From Gemmataceae bacterium (GTDB taxonomy: Bacteria; Planctomycetota; Planctomycetia; Gemmatales; Gemmataceae), in assembly GCA_026418875.1 (NCBI GenBank), contig JAOAAM010000233.1:1-14416 (forward strand): a stretch of 14,416 bases of DNA, in the 5' to 3' direction. The translations under genes were made by a program, and so were the position numbers. The notes under the pieces are model-generated. The model saw only the letters and a program-made list of their open reading frames with translations, had not been told where the DNA came from and ran no database searches. Below are positions 2,804-9,035 of the stretch, in pieces. Position 1 is the stretch's first letter; each line of letters begins with the position of its first letter.

Positions 2804-3115
2804 CCGCTCTCCTCCCGCGCGAGTCTTGTCACGATGAAGAGTCCACAAAATGTCACGCCAGTTGCAGCTGTATGGAGATCTCGGGAGCAATTCAACACGG
2901 CACAACAAAACCCATCGAATTTGTCATTCGGGATCTTGCTTCGTCGTACTACTTAGGGCGGTACCCTGTTCCATCCCACATCCTCGGGATTCGGACAAGT
3001 ACCAGCCGATCTGGAGAGGTACAAAAATGATCTGACGGTTTGCCGATGACATGCCCTCGGACTAGCAAGTATCCTCGGATGATTTCCGCCTGCATGCGCG
3101 CGCCGGCGGAATCGG
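2804..3115. other. Divergent intergenic region, no gene seen
   Basis: These 312 bases separate the minus-strand isomerase-like gene from plus-strand gene A and must hold the promoters of both. No convincing -35/-10 pair was found for either. The octamer ATCCTCGG occurs twice (2980-2987 and 3071-3078). Near each copy is a similar stretch, CGGACAAGTACC at 2992-3003 and CGGACTAGCAAGTATCC at 3058-3074, making a loose imperfect repeat that could be an operator or chance. Short open frames here do not look coding. Confidence 0.5.
2809..2815 (-). promoter_or_regulatory. Ribosome binding site deciding the isomerase-like start
   Basis: On the minus strand this reads GGAGGAG, five bases before the ATG at 2803. 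It supports that start over the upstream in-frame ATG at 2908. Confidence 0.75.
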
Positions 3116-4225
3116 GTGACCCAATCCGGAGCGATGGCAGGGCAGACCATGACCGAGCAACCGGAACAACGCGAGCATACCGTCCCAAGTAGCGATGCCG
3201 CGGCGCCCCCGCTCGCCTCAGGAGCTTCTGGGATGGAACTGCTTTCTTGCGCCTCGAACCCAAGTGATTTCAAGCAACAGTTGCTCAATGCCGATGTCGA
3301 CACCCTCGCGTCTTGGGCCGGCCATGCCCCCGAGGAGTGGCAAAGACAGATGGCTTTCGAGCAACTCAGACCATTTATCAACGAGATCATCAGGAAACTG
3401 CGTTATCGATGTGCCCGACGCCTGCGCGATGATTTTGAAGTCAACGCCCTCGCACATATCTGGGGAAAGGTAACCAAATTCACACCGCATGCCGGCACAT
3501 TCCAGAAATGGTGTGCTGTTGTCTTACGACATCTCGCCCTCACAATGCAACGCGGAGAGGCCCGGCACAGATGCCTCATAAGCAATTTTGCTAATTCGAA
3601 ACTTAAATCACGGCCCCCTCATCGAAAACCGCTTGATGATCCAGATGCTAGACCACCCCTCGTTGAGGGTATGGACTCGGACGAAGACCAAGATGATGAT
3701 ATTGCCGACCCAAGCTCCTCGAAGACAGATGTCCCTACGCTTGGTGTAAAGCAAGAGCACCTTGACTCGCTCAAGACTTCGATGGAGGACCTTCGTGATG
3801 CATTGAGCAGTATCTCCTGGGGTGCGCTCCGGGGAGTAAATTACCATGCGGTCGTCCTGTTGCAGCTTAGGCTAGCGATGGCGAAACTCGTGACCGGCAC
3901 CATTGAACACGTACTGCGAAGCGAAGTACTCGAAGCATTCCTACCTTGGGTTGATAACGAGAAACACATGTCATTCCGAAACGGCTGGCCCACCCTCGAA
4001 GCGATATGGGACGGTCTATGCCCCCGGCTCGACGAGCCACCTAACTATGTCGATGTTGGCGTGCTTTGTAACGTTGTGAACGACTTGCCTCCACCGACAA
4101 TACGGCTCAACGAGGCTCTTTGGAATCAATGGGTCAAACGGGCGAAGGAGCGATTGAAACTGGAGCTACAAGCAATGAATCACTGGACGCCCCTGTTGGC
4201 ATCTCTGTTCCCAGATCGCTCTTAA
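3116..4225 (+). CDS. Gene A: protein with a sigma-factor region-2-like segment
   Basis: The protein has 369 residues and no family was recognised with certainty. Residues about 80-150 resemble ECF sigma-factor region 2. They form a helical block (FEQLRPFINEIIRKLRYRCARR), an acidic start (DDFEVNALAHIWGKVTKF), then the pattern G-T-F-x-x-W-x-x-x-V-L-R-H-L-A-L, which in real sigma factors reads like GSFRAWLFTIARNLA. A Pro/Ala/Ser-rich leader precedes it. A low-complexity acidic stretch (DSDEDQDDDIADPSSS, about 182-200) follows. The helix near residues 220-260 (LRDALSS, VVLLQLRLAMAKLV) could be a degenerate region 4, but no clear helix-turn-helix is visible. The start is uncertain: GTG at 3116 has GGCGGA upstream, while ATGs at 3134 and 3149 are in frame and the latter follows AGGG. 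It is the first gene of the A-D set, 53 bases before gene B. It could be a true sigma factor, a sigma mimic or an unrelated helical protein. Confidence 0.7.
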   Translation: MTQSGAMAGQTMTEQPEQREHTVPSSDAAAPPLASGASGMELLSCASNPSDFKQQLLNADVDTLASWAGHAPEEWQRQMAFEQLRPFINEIIRKLRYRCARRLRDDFEVNALAHIWGKVTKFTPHAGTFQKWCAVVLRHLALTMQRGEARHRCLISNFANSKLKSRPPHRKPLDDPDARPPLVEGMDSDEDQDDDIADPSSSKTDVPTLGVKQEHLDSLKTSMEDLRDALSSISWGALRGVNYHAVVLLQLRLAMAKLVTGTIEHVLRSEVLEAFLPWVDNEKHMSFRNGWPTLEAIWDGLCPRLDEPPNYVDVGVLCNVVNDLPPPTIRLNEALWNQWVKRAKERLKLELQAMNHWTPLLASLFPDRS

Positions 4226-4278
4226 AGTTCGTTGGACCCGGAATAGACTGAGGAAATTCAGTATTCGAGTGTGGTCTC

Positions 4279-5061
4279 ATGCCCTCCCAGTTCGATGCCT
4301 CTGGACTTCAGCTCCGTGAGATCCCCCATCCCTTGGTGCCTCGTTCCTCGGTGCGGGTCTTCCCGGATGCGGAGTCGGCGTGCCGGCACTTGCGTGATCA
4401 CCTCCTGACAGCTCCGGAGTGTTACGCCTGGGCGCTTATTTGCCCGGATTACGATAAACTCCTCGACGTGCATAACGCCGACGCCCGCTTCCAGTACTGG
4501 CAAGAGGCGCAACGCACGAGTGGAGTCAGCGCCCAGCCGCTTTATGACCTTTATTGCCGGGCTATTCGGATAAACGCCGAGGACGCCCAAAAACTAGGTT
4601 GGCACGTCGGCACCACGAGATGTCTCATCGCCTTGGGCACGGACGGCGTGCTGCTCATCATCAGTAATTACGCCGTCACCACCGCCTTCGTTCCCGGGCA
4701 AGGGACGCCCGACGCTGTTCGGGAACAACGCAACTCAAATTCCCGCGGATTGCCCCGCGAGAGAGGAATGCGATCCGGCCGACCCAATCGCAGTGCCGAC
4801 GACACTTTTCATCTAGACCGTCTCATCCGAGAGCGGCGGGAAGCGTCATGGAGTCGAGACCAGCGGCTTTATTATTATGGATTCCGACCCGCGGTGCAGT
4901 TCCTGAGGCGGTTTCAGCGAATCGCACCGACTACGAATGGCGACGTAGCCTATCTTGGTTACGAGGCGATCAAGAGGAGAATCCCACGGTTAAGTCAGCT
5001 GAAATGGCCGAATTGGCAAGATCTGCGTCGCCAATGCGGCAGAGAGGACCACCATGGATGA
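4279..5061 (+). CDS. Gene B: uncharacterised protein, possible RNase-like fold
   Basis: The protein has 260 residues and no family was recognised. The first 145 residues look like a compact alpha/beta domain with helices (residues 30-100) followed by GWHVGTTRCLIALG (107-120) and two likely strands, GVLLIISNYAVTTAFVPG (123-140). A His/Arg-bearing segment before paired strands ending in T-T-A-F-x-P is reminiscent of barnase/EndoU/colicin-E5/RelE-type RNase toxins, but this is a pattern impression only. Residues about 145-260 are basic and Arg-rich, with RLYYYGFRPAVQFLRRFQ, and could bind nucleic acid. No signal peptide or membrane segment is seen. ATG 4279 is the first start in frame after an upstream stop, with only a weak GAGTG before it. 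The last eight bases overlap gene C, so B and C are probably made together. Confidence 0.7.
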   Translation: MPSQFDASGLQLREIPHPLVPRSSVRVFPDAESACRHLRDHLLTAPECYAWALICPDYDKLLDVHNADARFQYWQEAQRTSGVSAQPLYDLYCRAIRINAEDAQKLGWHVGTTRCLIALGTDGVLLIISNYAVTTAFVPGQGTPDAVREQRNSNSRGLPRERGMRSGRPNRSADDTFHLDRLIRERREASWSRDQRLYYYGFRPAVQFLRRFQRIAPTTNGDVAYLGYEAIKRRIPRLSQLKWPNWQDLRRQCGREDHHG

Positions 5062-6193
5062 GAATATCTTTGTGAGTGACTTCTTGCGCGCCACCCGCGA
5101 AGGACAGACTGATCCGCAAGGTGTCGTGGCCGACTGGATCGATGAGCTTGAATCGGTACTGGAGAACGAAGAGCTTACCTCCGACGAGGCCTTCACGTTG
5201 TTGGCCACTCGGGAGAAATTGCGGCGAGTGAAGCCCGAGTTCATCAACGATGAAAACGGGTGGCAAGTTCTCAAGGCCGCTGAACAGCGTATTGCTGCAG
5301 GGCCACATTCATTGCTTGAATCAGCCTTGGCATTGGTGAATCCCCAAGCCTGGCTTGAGGATCTTCGCCGTCTGCACGCATCGTTCGAGGACGAGGACGA
5401 AATCGATCCGTATGAGCAATCGATATTCGCCGCACAGCTAATTGATGATCTGGATGATGCGCAGCTGCTGTTGGTTGCGGCTCAACGATTCGGCATTCAA
5501 GACAACCAATTGGAAGAGCAACTTGACCTATGTGAGAGTGATTTGGTAGCGCATGCCGATCTTTTCTATGAAGCGACCATCCACGTACAGAGTATTGGGT
5601 TGACCCTCCGGACGGATCTCGACGAGACCGATTATAACTTGGCCGCAACCACCCTTAAATTCATCGACCTTCTTGAAGCTGCCGAGGTGGTTGAAGCGGA
5701 GAATAACTTCGACCATATCACGCCGCTGGATCCCGACTTGGCTCGCGCTCTCTACCACGCTTTGCGCGAGGAGGCCGGCTACACGCAACCACGGCGAACT
5801 TTCCTCAAGCTGATGAACAAGTACCGCCGCGCCTTCGAGCTTTTGCCGGTCGCTGCAGCGACGCCTCATGGACCGACTGAACCGCCCCAGCGCTTCGTTT
5901 GGCGATCGCCCGACGGCTCCGCGTTCGCTCGGATGATCCTGCCCGGAACGCCGACGAGCACGGACGAAGAAATCCGAATCGGTTTCTTCAAAGCATCCGA
6001 TCAAACGCCATTCACAGCGTTGGCAGGCAAACGAATTCGTGTCGGCGACGCCGAGGCCACTGTTCGCCCCGAGGGCTGGTCCGCATTTTCGCTGAAGGAC
6101 CTCGTCTCTTCAAAGGAGCCTTGGAAACTCATGGTGGAATCGGATGAAACCGAATGGCAATTGGAATTGCCGGATCCGGAGCACGACCGTTAA
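5054..6193 (+). CDS. Gene C: acidic helical protein with beta-rich C-terminus
   Basis: The protein has 379 residues and no family was recognised. It is strikingly acidic along residues 1-240 (for example DWIDELESVLENEEL, SFEDEDEIDPYEQ, LIDDLDDAQLL) and mostly helical there. From about residue 280 it changes to a beta-rich domain (RFVWRSPDGSAFARMIL, EIRIGFFKAS, LAGKRIRVGDAEATV, PWKLMVES), suggestive of a small beta-sandwich. The middle region up to 270 is again helical, ending FLKLMNKYRRAFELLP. There is no export signal. AGAGAGGA (5041-5048) lies five bases before ATG 5054, and the gene overlaps B by eight bases, so translation is coupled. By analogy with protease/anti-sigma/sigma modules it could be the partner or substrate that links D to A. 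An acidic surface suited to binding a basic protein such as B is another option. Both are inference. Confidence 0.75.
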   Translation: MDENIFVSDFLRATREGQTDPQGVVADWIDELESVLENEELTSDEAFTLLATREKLRRVKPEFINDENGWQVLKAAEQRIAAGPHSLLESALALVNPQAWLEDLRRLHASFEDEDEIDPYEQSIFAAQLIDDLDDAQLLLVAAQRFGIQDNQLEEQLDLCESDLVAHADLFYEATIHVQSIGLTLRTDLDETDYNLAATTLKFIDLLEAAEVVEAENNFDHITPLDPDLARALYHALREEAGYTQPRRTFLKLMNKYRRAFELLPVAAATPHGPTEPPQRFVWRSPDGSAFARMILPGTPTSTDEEIRIGFFKASDQTPFTALAGKRIRVGDAEATVRPEGWSAFSLKDLVSSKEPWKLMVESDETEWQLELPDPEHDR

Positions 6194-6232
6194 CCAAATG
6201 CTGGAGATGATCATCTGTCCTTCCAATACGCC

Positions 6233-7579
6233 ATGACTGCCCACCTGCCCCGGTCCTTCGCCGAGCTTACGGCGCATGAAGCGAGCGAGTTAGCATGTCG
6301 ATTTGGTGCCCTTGCACGCTGGTGTCTCGACCCCGGCGTATTATCCAAGGCACGGCAGGATCCCACGATCACACCCTCTGTCGCCGAGACCTGGACGCCC
6401 CCGATTGGATGTCCCCGAGAACCTGGCGGATGTTGGATCGTTTTTGCAACAAAAGAGACGCGAACACACCTTCGTCCAGCTTTTATCCTGCCGTTTCGCT
6501 GGTGTCGCGGTCATGACCACGACCATCGACTTCCGCAGGCCGTCGTGAAATTGGCTGACCAAGTGCTTAGCGATTTCGCCAACGAATCGTCCCTTGGAGG
6601 TCACTCTTGGATGCTTCGTTGGTCGGCAGAAATCGTTGACCGTGAGATTCCCGAGCTAAAACTCGATGCCAGTTCCGGCTGGGCTGCCTTGGCGGCGGGT
6701 CTGTTAGTTGCGGCAGAGGGTGGCAGACTCGACACCGGCGTTTGGGCCTCCGCTCGTTGGGATCACGGCATTCAGCCTGTCGCAGATCTCGATCGAAAAC
6801 TCGCTCTCGCGCGGGACTTCGGTGTCCACACGTTCTTCGTTCCCGGCTCTCAACTTCTCGAAGCTGAGCGCCTCGCGCAGCAATTGCAAGCGACGATCAA
6901 AGTGAAACCGCTCCTCGATGGCGAATTGAACCCGCGTAAAGCATTGAAACCGTATTTACAGCACCTAAAAGTTCGTCCGACGCTCGAGGATAGCCAAGAG
7001 GACCGGCGTGGCTACTTCCTCAGCCCAGACTTGGACGCGGGTGAAGCATCCGATTATTATCGGCAATATCTGCTGCCCGATATCATACAGCGTTGCCGAG
7101 CTGATGACTCATTGAAGACTCTCCCCGCGCCGGATGCTTTGATCACCATCGCCAGCGACAATCCCGACTTGGTCATTCTCGGCATTGAAGTTCATCGACC
7201 ACGACGATGCCTTGTTTTATACACGACTGACAAAGCCAATGCGACGGCCTCAGCCCGCCAGGCAGCAAAGGAAAACTCGGTCGGATGCCAGGTTTATGAA
7301 CAATCGTTCAACGATCTAGAGGATTTACGGGCCAACATGTCGGAGACGATTGCCCGCTTCATTGCCCATCATAAGCCGGAATCGATCCTCTTCGATCTCA
7401 CGCCCGGTCCCAAGGACATCAGTTTTAGTTTGATGTTGGACGTTGCTCCATCGAAGAGCATGTTCTACTATCTGAAACATCAAATTGAGCAAAGTGTCCG
7501 CCGAGTCGTCCCCTTCTCCGAGAAGCCGATCGTTTGGCAGTCAATGGGCCGACTGCCGAAAGCTGATGGCACGAGCTGA
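6233..7579 (+). CDS. Gene D: Lon-like (S16) protease domain fused to a CARF-like sensor domain
   Basis: The protein has 448 residues. Residues about 140-215 follow the Lon proteolytic core: DASSGWAALAAGLLVAAEGG (145-164) lines up with the Lon DGPSAG...TALVSxLTG helix carrying the catalytic Ser, and VADLDRKLALARDFGVHTFFVP (183-204) with IGGLKEKLLAAHRGGIKTVLIP carrying the catalytic Lys. The proposed dyad is S148 (or S147) and K189. The spacing is 41 residues, against 43 in E. coli Lon (S679/K722). No AAA+ ATPase domain is present. Residues about 300-440 look like a CARF Rossmann domain: DALITIASDNPDLVILGIEV (301-320), strand CLVLYTTD, and the late motif DLTPGPKDIS (388-397), in the place of the D/N-x-TGGTK motif of Card1/Can2/Csm6-type CARFs. 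No membrane segment is seen. The start is uncertain: ATG 6233 lacks a good Shine-Dalgarno site, while GGAG at 6203-6206 suits an unusual in-frame CTG at 6215. It lies 39 bases after gene C. Confidence 0.75.
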   Translation: MTAHLPRSFAELTAHEASELACRFGALARWCLDPGVLSKARQDPTITPSVAETWTPPIGCPREPGGCWIVFATKETRTHLRPAFILPFRWCRGHDHDHRLPQAVVKLADQVLSDFANESSLGGHSWMLRWSAEIVDREIPELKLDASSGWAALAAGLLVAAEGGRLDTGVWASARWDHGIQPVADLDRKLALARDFGVHTFFVPGSQLLEAERLAQQLQATIKVKPLLDGELNPRKALKPYLQHLKVRPTLEDSQEDRRGYFLSPDLDAGEASDYYRQYLLPDIIQRCRADDSLKTLPAPDALITIASDNPDLVILGIEVHRPRRCLVLYTTDKANATASARQAAKENSVGCQVYEQSFNDLEDLRANMSETIARFIAHHKPESILFDLTPGPKDISFSLMLDVAPSKSMFYYLKHQIEQSVRRVVPFSEKPIVWQSMGRLPKADGTS

Positions 7580-7619
7580 TTACGATTTGGTTCGCTCCGA
7601 CTGCTGCTCGCTCGCTGAG

Positions 7620-9035
7620 CTACATCGGTGACACTGATGCCCTCTCGCCGTCGGGAGGCGTCATCCATCGGGAGAGAGGGATGGCGATAGCTAACGTGGC
7701 CAGGCTAAGCAATGCGGGTATCCTGCGATCTGGTTGCGTGATGGTGTAGCCGACGGTCCATCCCACCAAAATGAGATACAGCAGCGGCGGAAGAGGATAA
7801 CTGGGAAGACGATACGGGTGCGGCAAATCCGCTCGTCGGCGAAGAGGAAAGACGCTCGCCACCGTCAATCCCGACGCCAACGCCAGTCCGACCGAGGCGT
7901 AATCTAATAATTCCAGAAACGTTCCCGACCAGATAAGGACCGTCGCCGCCAAGCCATGAAACCCGATCGCCATCGCGGGAACCTGTCGCCGAGGATGCAA
8001 TCTTCCAGCCCAAACGGGAAAGGCGCGATCTCTCGCCATCGCATACGCGACTCGTGGCCCTGTGAGAACATAAGCACTCACGGATGCAAGTAAGCTTAGG
8101 CCGAACATCACGGCAGCAACATTCGCCACACTTGGACCGAATAAATGTTGGATCGCCAGCTCTGCCACCCGCTCGACTTGCCCAGGGGAGAGGGTCCTCA
8201 TCATCGCCGGGTCAAGAGCGTAGATGTAGGTCACATTGACGGCAAGATAAAGCAACGTGACAGTGATCGTTCCGCCCAGCAAACAGAGAGGCAGAAGGCG
8301 AGCCGGATCGCGGATCTCACCACCGAGATATGCGGCTCCATTCCAGCCAGCGTAGGCGTACCCAACGTAAATCAGACCGACCGCGAGAGCCGGCCATTGC
8401 TCAGGCGATGGCCAAGCGCCTGCGGCGAGATGAGACCAACTGCCTTCGCCGTATGTCAACCCTGCGACCACCAACAACGACAGGACCGTGATTTTCACAA
8501 TCGTCGCAGCGATCTGCAACCGGCTGCTCTGCCGATGCCCCAACGAGTGAGTGACGGCCACCGTGAGGACGATCAACGTTGCGACAACCTGAGCAAAGTG
8601 AGTTGCGATGATGGGCGGCAAGTTGGCATGAAGTATTTCCGTGAAAGGCGAGGTGAGATAGGAGGCGGCGAGCCGGGCGACGACCGCCGTCGGGGCGATA
8701 AACCCAATCACGAAGGTCGCCCAACCGGCGACGAAGCCCGCCGCGTTGCCGAATCCCTCCCGGACGAAAACGTAATCACCGCCGACCCGGGGTAGCCGCG
8801 TTGCCAGTTCGGCCACCGTGACCGCCCCGGCCCATGCCATCACTCCGCCGAGTAACCACAGGCCCAAAAGAGCCGCAGGATTCCCCGTGTCGCGCAGGGT
8901 AAACCCCGAGGTGGTGAGGATGCCCGCCCCGATCATGCTGGCGACGACGACGATATGGCCCGTCCAGTAACCGAAGCGTCGCGGCACAGAATCGGTAGGC
9001 AACGAGGTGTGGCTCGTCGGATCCTGAGATGTCAT
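7620..9035 (-). CDS. APC-superfamily amino acid permease
   Basis: The protein has 471 residues with about 12 hydrophobic membrane-spanning segments, typical in length for secondary transporters of the amino acid-polyamine-organocation superfamily, which move amino acids with protons, sodium or by exchange. The first helix carries the substrate-binding IGAGIL motif (35-40). ELATRLPRVGGDYVFVREGFG follows helix 2. GYAYAGWNGAAYLGGEIRDPARLLP marks the sixth helix and the loop after it, as in LAT/SteT-like members. The short N-terminal tail is polar and cytoplasmic. The exact substrate cannot be assigned. The ATG (9033-9035) shares its first base with the stop codon of the upstream methyltransferase gene (TAATG), so translation is coupled. 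It is the last gene of the minus-strand block and converges with gene D across 40 bases, where no clear terminator was seen. Confidence 0.9.
   Translation of the reverse strand: MTSQDPTSHTSLPTDSVPRRFGYWTGHIVVVASMIGAGILTTSGFTLRDTGNPAALLGLWLLGGVMAWAGAVTVAELATRLPRVGGDYVFVREGFGNAAGFVAGWATFVIGFIAPTAVVARLAASYLTSPFTEILHANLPPIIATHFAQVVATLIVLTVAVTHSLGHRQSSRLQIAATIVKITVLSLLVVAGLTYGEGSWSHLAAGAWPSPEQWPALAVGLIYVGYAYAGWNGAAYLGGEIRDPARLLPLCLLGGTITVTLLYLAVNVTYIYALDPAMMRTLSPGQVERVAELAIQHLFGPSVANVAAVMFGLSLLASVSAYVLTGPRVAYAMARDRAFPVWAGRLHPRRQVPAMAIGFHGLAATVLIWSGTFLELLDYASVGLALASGLTVASVFPLRRRADLPHPYRLPSYPLPPLLYLILVGWTVGYTITQPDRRIPALLSLATLAIAIPLSRWMTPPDGERASVSPM

Follow-up and report, generated by a model that had tools for sequence, protein, structure and literature searches.

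A CARF-Lon gene module with an ECF-type sigma factor in a Gemmataceae bacterium: a probable signal-gated transcription switch tied to type III CRISPR

The window analyzed here is a stretch of 14,416 nucleotides from a Gemmataceae bacterium of the phylum Planctomycetota (GenBank assembly GCA_026418875.1, contig JAOAAM010000233.1, forward strand). It carries one co-directional cluster of four intact open reading frames, genes A to D (3116-7579, +). Gene D is predicted to encode a CARF-Lon protein, in which a Lon S16 protease domain is joined to a CARF nucleotide sensor, and gene A a divergent sigma factor of the extracytoplasmic function (ECF) type. The module is tied to type III CRISPR, and we consider it likely to be a transcription switch gated by cyclic oligoadenylate. 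A first-pass annotation, made from the nucleotide sequence, had described four frames separated by 53 (A-B), -8 (B-C) and 39 (C-D) bases; its positions and gaps are confirmed (Table 1).

Composition and conservation of the module

The predicted D protein (448 residues) matches the PADLOC model PDLC01981 (CARF_m2--CARF_LON) over residues 8-436 with an E-value of 1.7e-104, a match that identifies it as a full-length member of the CARF_LON family. Pfam reports nothing above its cut-offs for D, and D as a single sequence finds no match among solved structures. A profile of 19 D proteins matches the CARF domain of Csm6 (E 2.5e-6) and Can2 (E 0.0019) with its C-terminal half, Card1 also being matched, and an archaeal Lon protease (1z0e, E 1.8e-5) with its N-terminal half, in an alignment that spans the predicted catalytic serine and lysine positions. 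Across 46 D frames, which include both halves of a D gene split in two frames (L081), Ser148 is serine in 44 and a gap in the other two, Lys189 is lysine in 45 and a gap in the remaining one, and the D-x-T-x-G residues of the CARF motif are kept in 40 (D388), 39 (T390) and 41 (G392). By these comparisons D is a Lon domain plus a CARF domain with an intact predicted Ser-Lys dyad, as the first-pass annotation had read it. The matches listed for the sensor half include CARF proteins and no SAVED protein. Because D has Lon and CARF halves and no AAA+ match above noise (none in Pfam; the sole AAA signal, NCBIfam AAA_KGGVGR at E 0.079, is far below cut-off and lies in the CARF half), it should be a nucleotide-gated protease and not an ATP-driven unfoldase.

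Gene A probably starts at ATG 3149, since its counterpart in the same-genus relative L040 starts at the aligned position. Sigma region 2 covers approximately residues 73-166 of the 369-residue frame, and a probable region-4-like helix-turn-helix lies near the C-terminus. In the window's own A, Pfam finds neither Sigma70_r2 nor Sigma70_r4_2, and the matches to two NCBIfam sigma models (E 2.9e-4 and 8.8e-4) fall well short of the curated cut-offs. Pooled into a profile, 32 A proteins match RpoE/ECF SigE with an E-value of 6.3e-10, along with many further ECF sigma factors; region 2 is clear in this family profile and region 4 is weak (second domain, 2.5 bits). Among the relatives, Pfam finds Sigma70_r2 in L032 (6.4e-9) and Sigma70_r4_2 in L036 (1.3e-9), the two domains being called in three and one, respectively, of 12 A members scanned. 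Judged by its family profile, A is a divergent ECF-type sigma factor, in keeping with the region-2-like segment noted earlier.

The conservation of the cluster was assessed at 45 non-redundant D loci gathered from phylum, class and named contigs. L040, L042, L044, L045 and L046 duplicate the contigs L078-L082, so each pair was counted once; the set excludes G420, G596 and G637 (CARF-only or short), G565 (broken D, retained among the 29 D-bearing genomes below) and the degenerate second copy of G664. The class search for D scored four candidates per genome, and further D copies may exist. Forty loci had at least 3.5 kb of upstream sequence and were evaluable, L081, L086, L091, L107 and L111 being set aside. 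An A-like sigma gene lies within 6.5 kb on the same strand in 35 of the 40, C is nearby on the same strand in 35, and B in 27, counting several genes assigned by eye (the sigma gene of L095, C of L112, and B of L047, L100, L102 and L112). The order also varies slightly (B-A-C-D in L100 and L102, D-A-C in L108). Loci without the sigma gene are L047, L089, L092, L094 and L105; those without C are L089, L092, L094, L105 and L106. The CARF-Lon genes of L089, L092, L094 and L105 have no recognized sigma, B or C gene nearby.

The iterated searches behind these tallies took their training members from these very loci, and their E-values therefore lend no independent support. An independent genome-wide search for C found it in 7 of 372 phylum genomes, always adjoining D (first five candidates per genome scored), and these are the same seven that carry a full-length D in a search of 392 phylum genomes. 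The B subfamily of the window occurs in 4 of the 372, only beside D (seven candidates scored per genome). A, C and D travel together, and the cluster, whose recurrence in related genomes the first-pass annotation had proposed to check, is a fixed unit.

Where present, C mostly lies between the sigma gene and the protease gene. An alignment of 34 proteins divides it into a variable N-terminal part and a conserved C-terminal domain of about 90 residues, with six invariant or nearly invariant columns besides the start methionine (W283, P286, A292, L359, V361 and W368). The motif HxxxCxxC is typical of zinc anti-sigma factors, and it occurs in the counterpart of C in L036, a short protein encoded beside the clear sigma factor mentioned above. 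Because of its place between sigma factor and protease, and because of this motif in L036, C is the best candidate for a probable anti-sigma factor and substrate of D, a stronger reading than the possible partner suggested before. Assignment of C to a known family failed, with no match above noise in Pfam (best, DUF717 at E 0.004 in 1 of 12 members), in PADLOC (none for 12 proteins) or among solved structures.

The B proteins have conserved histidine and tryptophan residues. Nine of the 35 loci with a sigma gene have no recognized B (counting L036, where a different gene takes that position), so B is dispensable for the module. The earlier suggestion that B may be a nuclease is not borne out: Pfam matches among 29 (A9) and 18 (A12) members, partly the same proteins, are at noise level (Ntox5 E 0.073 in 2 of 29, GH-E 0.16 in 1 of 18; the best is UreE_C, E 0.01 in 1 of 29), and no solved structure gives a worthwhile match. 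PADLOC offers only SspC (E 0.046) for one of 11 B proteins.

Counting the window's proteins, a set of 5.8 billion proteins contains at least 13 members of D, at least 4 of C and 25 of B. Seven of the eight named D loci are from planctomycetes, the whole-genome searches having covered that phylum only. Viral, plasmid and phage collections gave no relatives of D at the sensitivities used, and a home for D among these elements is thus not supported. In a deltaproteobacterial relative (L047, 8749-9669), D is in frame for the Lon part only and is immediately followed by a RAMP (csm5-like) gene.

Within the window, a consensus scan of 2850-7800 gave two sigma-70-like sites (2.5 expected) and ten terminator-like sites (shuffles 5.0, standard deviation 2.1), which say nothing clear about operon borders. 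No RNA family reached its gathering score in the window. Bases 1-37, at the contig start, read as what we take to be an Illumina Nextera transposase adapter, so that frame extensions over the first bases of the window are artefacts.

Association with type III CRISPR and a promoter-like site

The module is tied to type III CRISPR. The class draw comprised 397 genomes, 29 of them with D; the Cas10 palm model scores E <= 1e-9 in 26 of these 29 and in 24 of the 368 others (Fisher p 9e-24, only a guide, the genomes being related). The window genome's own Cas10, truncated at a contig end, reaches E 2.3e-7 and counts among the misses. RAMP genes are present in 31 of 32 D-bearing genomes tested, the exception being G664, and cas genes or a CRISPR array lie in the fetched DNA at 21 of the 45 D loci (in L103, an array-like repeat only). 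The Cas query proteins came largely from the same D loci and were named partly by reading; when ten were checked in Pfam, eight scored above cut-off, the Cas6 of L034 fell just below and the Cas6-like protein of L035 had no match. The clearest locus is L041 (Candidatus Anammoximicrobium), which runs from an array through a reverse transcriptase gene (by reading), cas1, A, B, C and D to cmr2 and onwards. In Alienimonas californiensis (L035), a cultured relative, the module likewise has a type III locus beside it. A Cas6-reverse transcriptase-Cas1 fusion with Pfam matches to all three parts is encoded near the CARF-Lon module and an array in L036 (12217-15108, -).

The first-pass annotation had placed the module perhaps outside a CRISPR locus. 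This stands for these 14 kb only, in which nothing matches the Cas query set (a set that holds no Cas7-11). It fails for the 21 loci just described and for the window genome itself (83% complete), where the search for Cas10 that had been proposed finds another contig, 4 kb long, that encodes Cas10 with GGDD and two RAMP proteins. In the same-genus L040 the module lies between the same flanking genes as in the window, with no cas genes on the contig. Because of these two arrangements, the module can act in trans.

A promoter-like site, TTGTCA-N18-CGTA, lies upstream of A. It emerged from a bipartite-word count in 18 regions upstream of A, where TTGTCAT-N17-CGTA is present in three and where three overlapping words from one site drew notice. 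Exact TTGTCA-N18-CGTA sites precede 5 of 39 modules versus 0.1 expected, including those of L107 and L109, neither of which had served for discovery. Allowing one mismatch or a spacer of N17-N19 gives 7 of 39 versus 0.68, among them the same-genus relative L078, which has a one-mismatch version. Ten D-bearing genomes hold 59 exact matches versus 45 for the reversed pattern, so the site is not a common promoter. Besides the five module matches, 8 of the 59 lie upstream of cas or CARF genes (Table 1). Chance would give 0.006 matches near such targets for 40 windows of 300 nt and 0.03 for 200 windows, both window numbers being assumptions. In the window genome, the module site and that on contig C400 both read TTTGTCATT-N13-CGTCGTA; a third match (C166) has no CRISPR gene near it. 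A search with the Csx1 model did not find the CARF-like gene of C400. Among the 37 of 59 matches viewed in context, 24 have no clear target. No exact site is found at the type III loci of 20 D-less genomes or contigs, a weak control with about 0.5 expected by chance; its positive set was 35 loci with seven exact sites, several of them fetched because they bear the site.

Since the site stands before A, and in some sister genomes also before cmr/cas10 and further CRISPR genes, sigma factor A may switch on CRISPR genes. Four further sites were rejected as regulatory: one in G670 (C144) inside a gene upstream of a cmr operon and about 600 nt away from it, two in G424 (C122) more than 1.5 kb from cas genes, and one in G441 (C317) inside a B gene. 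A GGAAC-type ECF promoter upstream of A was likewise discarded, being present in 1 of 18 regions.

Divergent from the L109 module, a gene preceded by the same promoter-like site (6073-6807, -) encodes a small protein that has two membrane helices and a C-terminal or N-terminal CARF-like stretch (by reading). Beside a dihydropteroate-synthase-like gene (by reading), the same chromosomal spot holds a single CARF-like gene in the window genome (L216, G000 contig C400) and a whole cmr operon in a same-genus genome (L215, G670 contig C144).

Table 1. Module features in the window and promoter-like sites near CRISPR genes of D-bearing genomes
Feature	Location	Strand	Basis or remark
Gene A, ECF-like sigma factor	open frame from GTG 3116; likely 3149..4225	+
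Gene B	4279..5061	+	family without assigned function; adjoins D in 27 of 40 evaluable loci
Gene C, probable anti-sigma factor and substrate of D	5054..6193	+
Gene D, predicted CARF-Lon	6233..7579	+	Lon S16 protease domain at the N-terminus, CARF sensor at the C-terminus
Codon of predicted catalytic Ser148 of D	6674..6676	+	alignment of 46 D frames
Codon of predicted catalytic Lys189 of D	6797..6799	+	alignment of 46 D frames
CARF motif D-L-T-P-G-P-K of D (residues 388-394)	7394..7414	+	alignment of 46 D frames
Candidate ECF-type promoter TTGTCA-N18-CGTA	2921..2948, upstream of A	+
Site at RAMP (cmr1) operon, G404	upstream		gene confirmed by Pfam
Site at RAMP operon, G441	63 nt before start		gene confirmed by Pfam
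Site at cas10, G441	49 nt upstream		gene confirmed by Pfam
Site pair, G605	between cas2 and Cas6-like gene		cas2 by reading; locus has phmmer matches to Cas1, reverse transcriptase and Cas6 queries
Site at CARF gene with two transmembrane segments, G404	upstream		gene named by reading
Site at cas3, G404	84 nt upstream		gene named by reading
Site at CARF gene, window genome contig C400	293 nt before start		gene named by reading

Proposed mechanism and alternatives

The simplest reading draws on analogy with CalpL/CalpT/CalpS (accessible parts of PMC11417357 and PMC12751052) and with Csx29/Csx30/CASP-sigma (accessible part of PMC10028731). On meeting foreign RNA, the type III complex (Cas10) would make cyclic oligoadenylate, which would bind the CARF half of D and activate its Lon half. 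Activated D would then cut C, which would normally hold sigma factor A, and the freed A would direct RNA polymerase to TTGTCA-N18-CGTA promoters. A would thereby transcribe the operon that encodes it; in several relatives, genes for CRISPR effectors, for processing and for adaptation would be targets too, and the whole would form a positive feedback. We advance more tentatively, as a real possibility, that the module is a third CRISPR cascade of protease and sigma factor, assembled independently of the other two: a CARF-Lon protease, acting on a new anti-sigma family, would free a dedicated sigma factor, and this would transcribe cmr/cas10, cas6, cas2 and other CRISPR genes along with the operon that encodes it. 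Such a cascade would amplify itself and could reach CRISPR loci at other places in the chromosome, B being a further arm parallel to Csx31.

Several observations weigh against this account of the module. A sigma gene is missing from five of the 40 evaluable D loci, and at 24 of the 45 D loci the fetched DNA contains neither a cas gene nor an array. The Cas10 model also matches the E. coli control, which is why the strict cut-off was applied, and Cas1 and Cas6 were not found in the window's 83% complete genome. B and C match no known family or solved structure above noise, and HxxxCxxC is present in one divergent relative of C only (L036), where Pfam made no call. The promoter-like word was found post hoc, and its count of 3 in 18 is also reached in shuffles; many module genomes have no exact site. 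An unsupervised search for shared sites across genomes, comparing module and type III upstream regions, gave no clear signal (31 pairs scoring at least 14 versus 16 in shuffles).

The same genes could be arranged differently, with B as a toxin (e.g., an RNase) held by C, D destroying C so that B stops growth, and A controlling only the expression of the cassette. The 8-base overlap of B and C in the window, the presence of B near D in 27 of 40 loci and the conserved histidine and tryptophan of B would fit such a toxin, and the accessible part of PMC9704534 draws a CARF/SAVED-Lon protein freeing one. However, eight of the nine sigma-bearing loci without B retain C (e.g., L080, L087 and L095), and the Ntox5 and GH-E matches of B are at noise level; we regard the toxin arrangement as rather unlikely. 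That active D degrades host or viral proteins indiscriminately, A to C only regulating it, appears improbable: a sigma gene and C each lie near D in 35 of 40 loci, C occurs only beside D across 372 genomes, and the two CRISPR proteases of comparable layout that have been studied both cleave an anti-sigma factor (PMC11417357 and PMC10028731, accessible parts). Such broad proteolysis by CARF-Lon is nevertheless speculated upon in the part of PMC9704534 available, and it would suit the D genes of L089, L092, L094 and L105, which have no recognized A, B or C nearby. It is more improbable still that the module answers another nucleotide signal independent of CRISPR, as the absence of cas genes from the window and from the same-genus L040/L078 within the sequence covered might suggest; D co-occurs with Cas10 and RAMPs and directly adjoins cas genes in relatives.

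A near-constant sigma factor and substrate candidate beside CARF-Lon make the proposed switch directly testable. If the promoter link is true, type III signalling raises transcription of the CRISPR machinery, which bears on CRISPR induction during infection.

Comparison with known systems

The first-pass annotation had allowed that related loci might already be listed, and the CARF-Lon protein type is indeed catalogued in PADLOC and in a review (PMC9704534, accessible part). That review is the one paper returned by a literature search for the CARF-Lon phrase; the part of it available does not name the partner genes, and guesses that CARF-Lon cuts essential host proteins or acts by promiscuous proteolysis. 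In the accessible portions of three surveys, CalpL is listed and CARF-Lon is not (type III effectors, PMC11229360), multi-component CARF/SAVED systems appear with no whole-word match for Lon or sigma (CRISPR mining, PMC10910872), and there is no match for Lon or sigma factor (conflict systems, PMC7159879). The sigma, B and C partners of CARF-Lon and a regulon were not found in the searchable literature, and primary CARF/CalpL papers or their supplements may note the sigma factor. As a full-length member of PADLOC CARF_LON, D belongs with a recognized type, to which the present analysis adds the sigma, B and C partners and a candidate regulon. New here is the promoter-like site TTGTCA-N18-CGTA before A and before CRISPR genes of some sister genomes.

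The nearest functional parallel is CalpL/CalpT/CalpS, as first proposed. Both systems pair a Lon protease and cyclic-nucleotide sensor with an ECF-type sigma factor and a candidate inhibitor, and both have a tie to type III CRISPR. In contrast to the SAVED sensor of CalpL, that of the module matches CARF; the module usually has four genes, whereas CalpL/T/S has three; and C and B have no detectable kinship to a known family. CalpT, the anti-sigma substrate of CalpL, is MazF-like; for B and C, comparison with Pfam and solved structures gave noise-level matches. CalpL is activated by cA4, and D would answer to a cyclic oligoadenylate. The type III-E CASP system (Csx29, Csx30, Csx31 and CASP-sigma) is alike in that a protease cuts a sigma inhibitor, as proposed for the module, and in having three companion genes that include a sigma factor and one gene of unassigned role; predicted sigma sites at cas1 are described for it in the accessible part of PMC10028731. 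The protease of the module is Lon whereas Csx29 is TPR-CHAT, and the trigger should be a diffusible nucleotide whereas that of CASP is RNA binding by Cas7-11. The module would work like CalpL/T/S and Csx29/Csx30/CASP-sigma and, by its sensor and protease, is a member of neither; PADLOC gave no Csx30 or Csx31 match for C or B. This would point to three or more separate origins of protease-controlled sigma factors around type III CRISPR, with SAVED-Lon, TPR-CHAT and CARF-Lon as their proteases.

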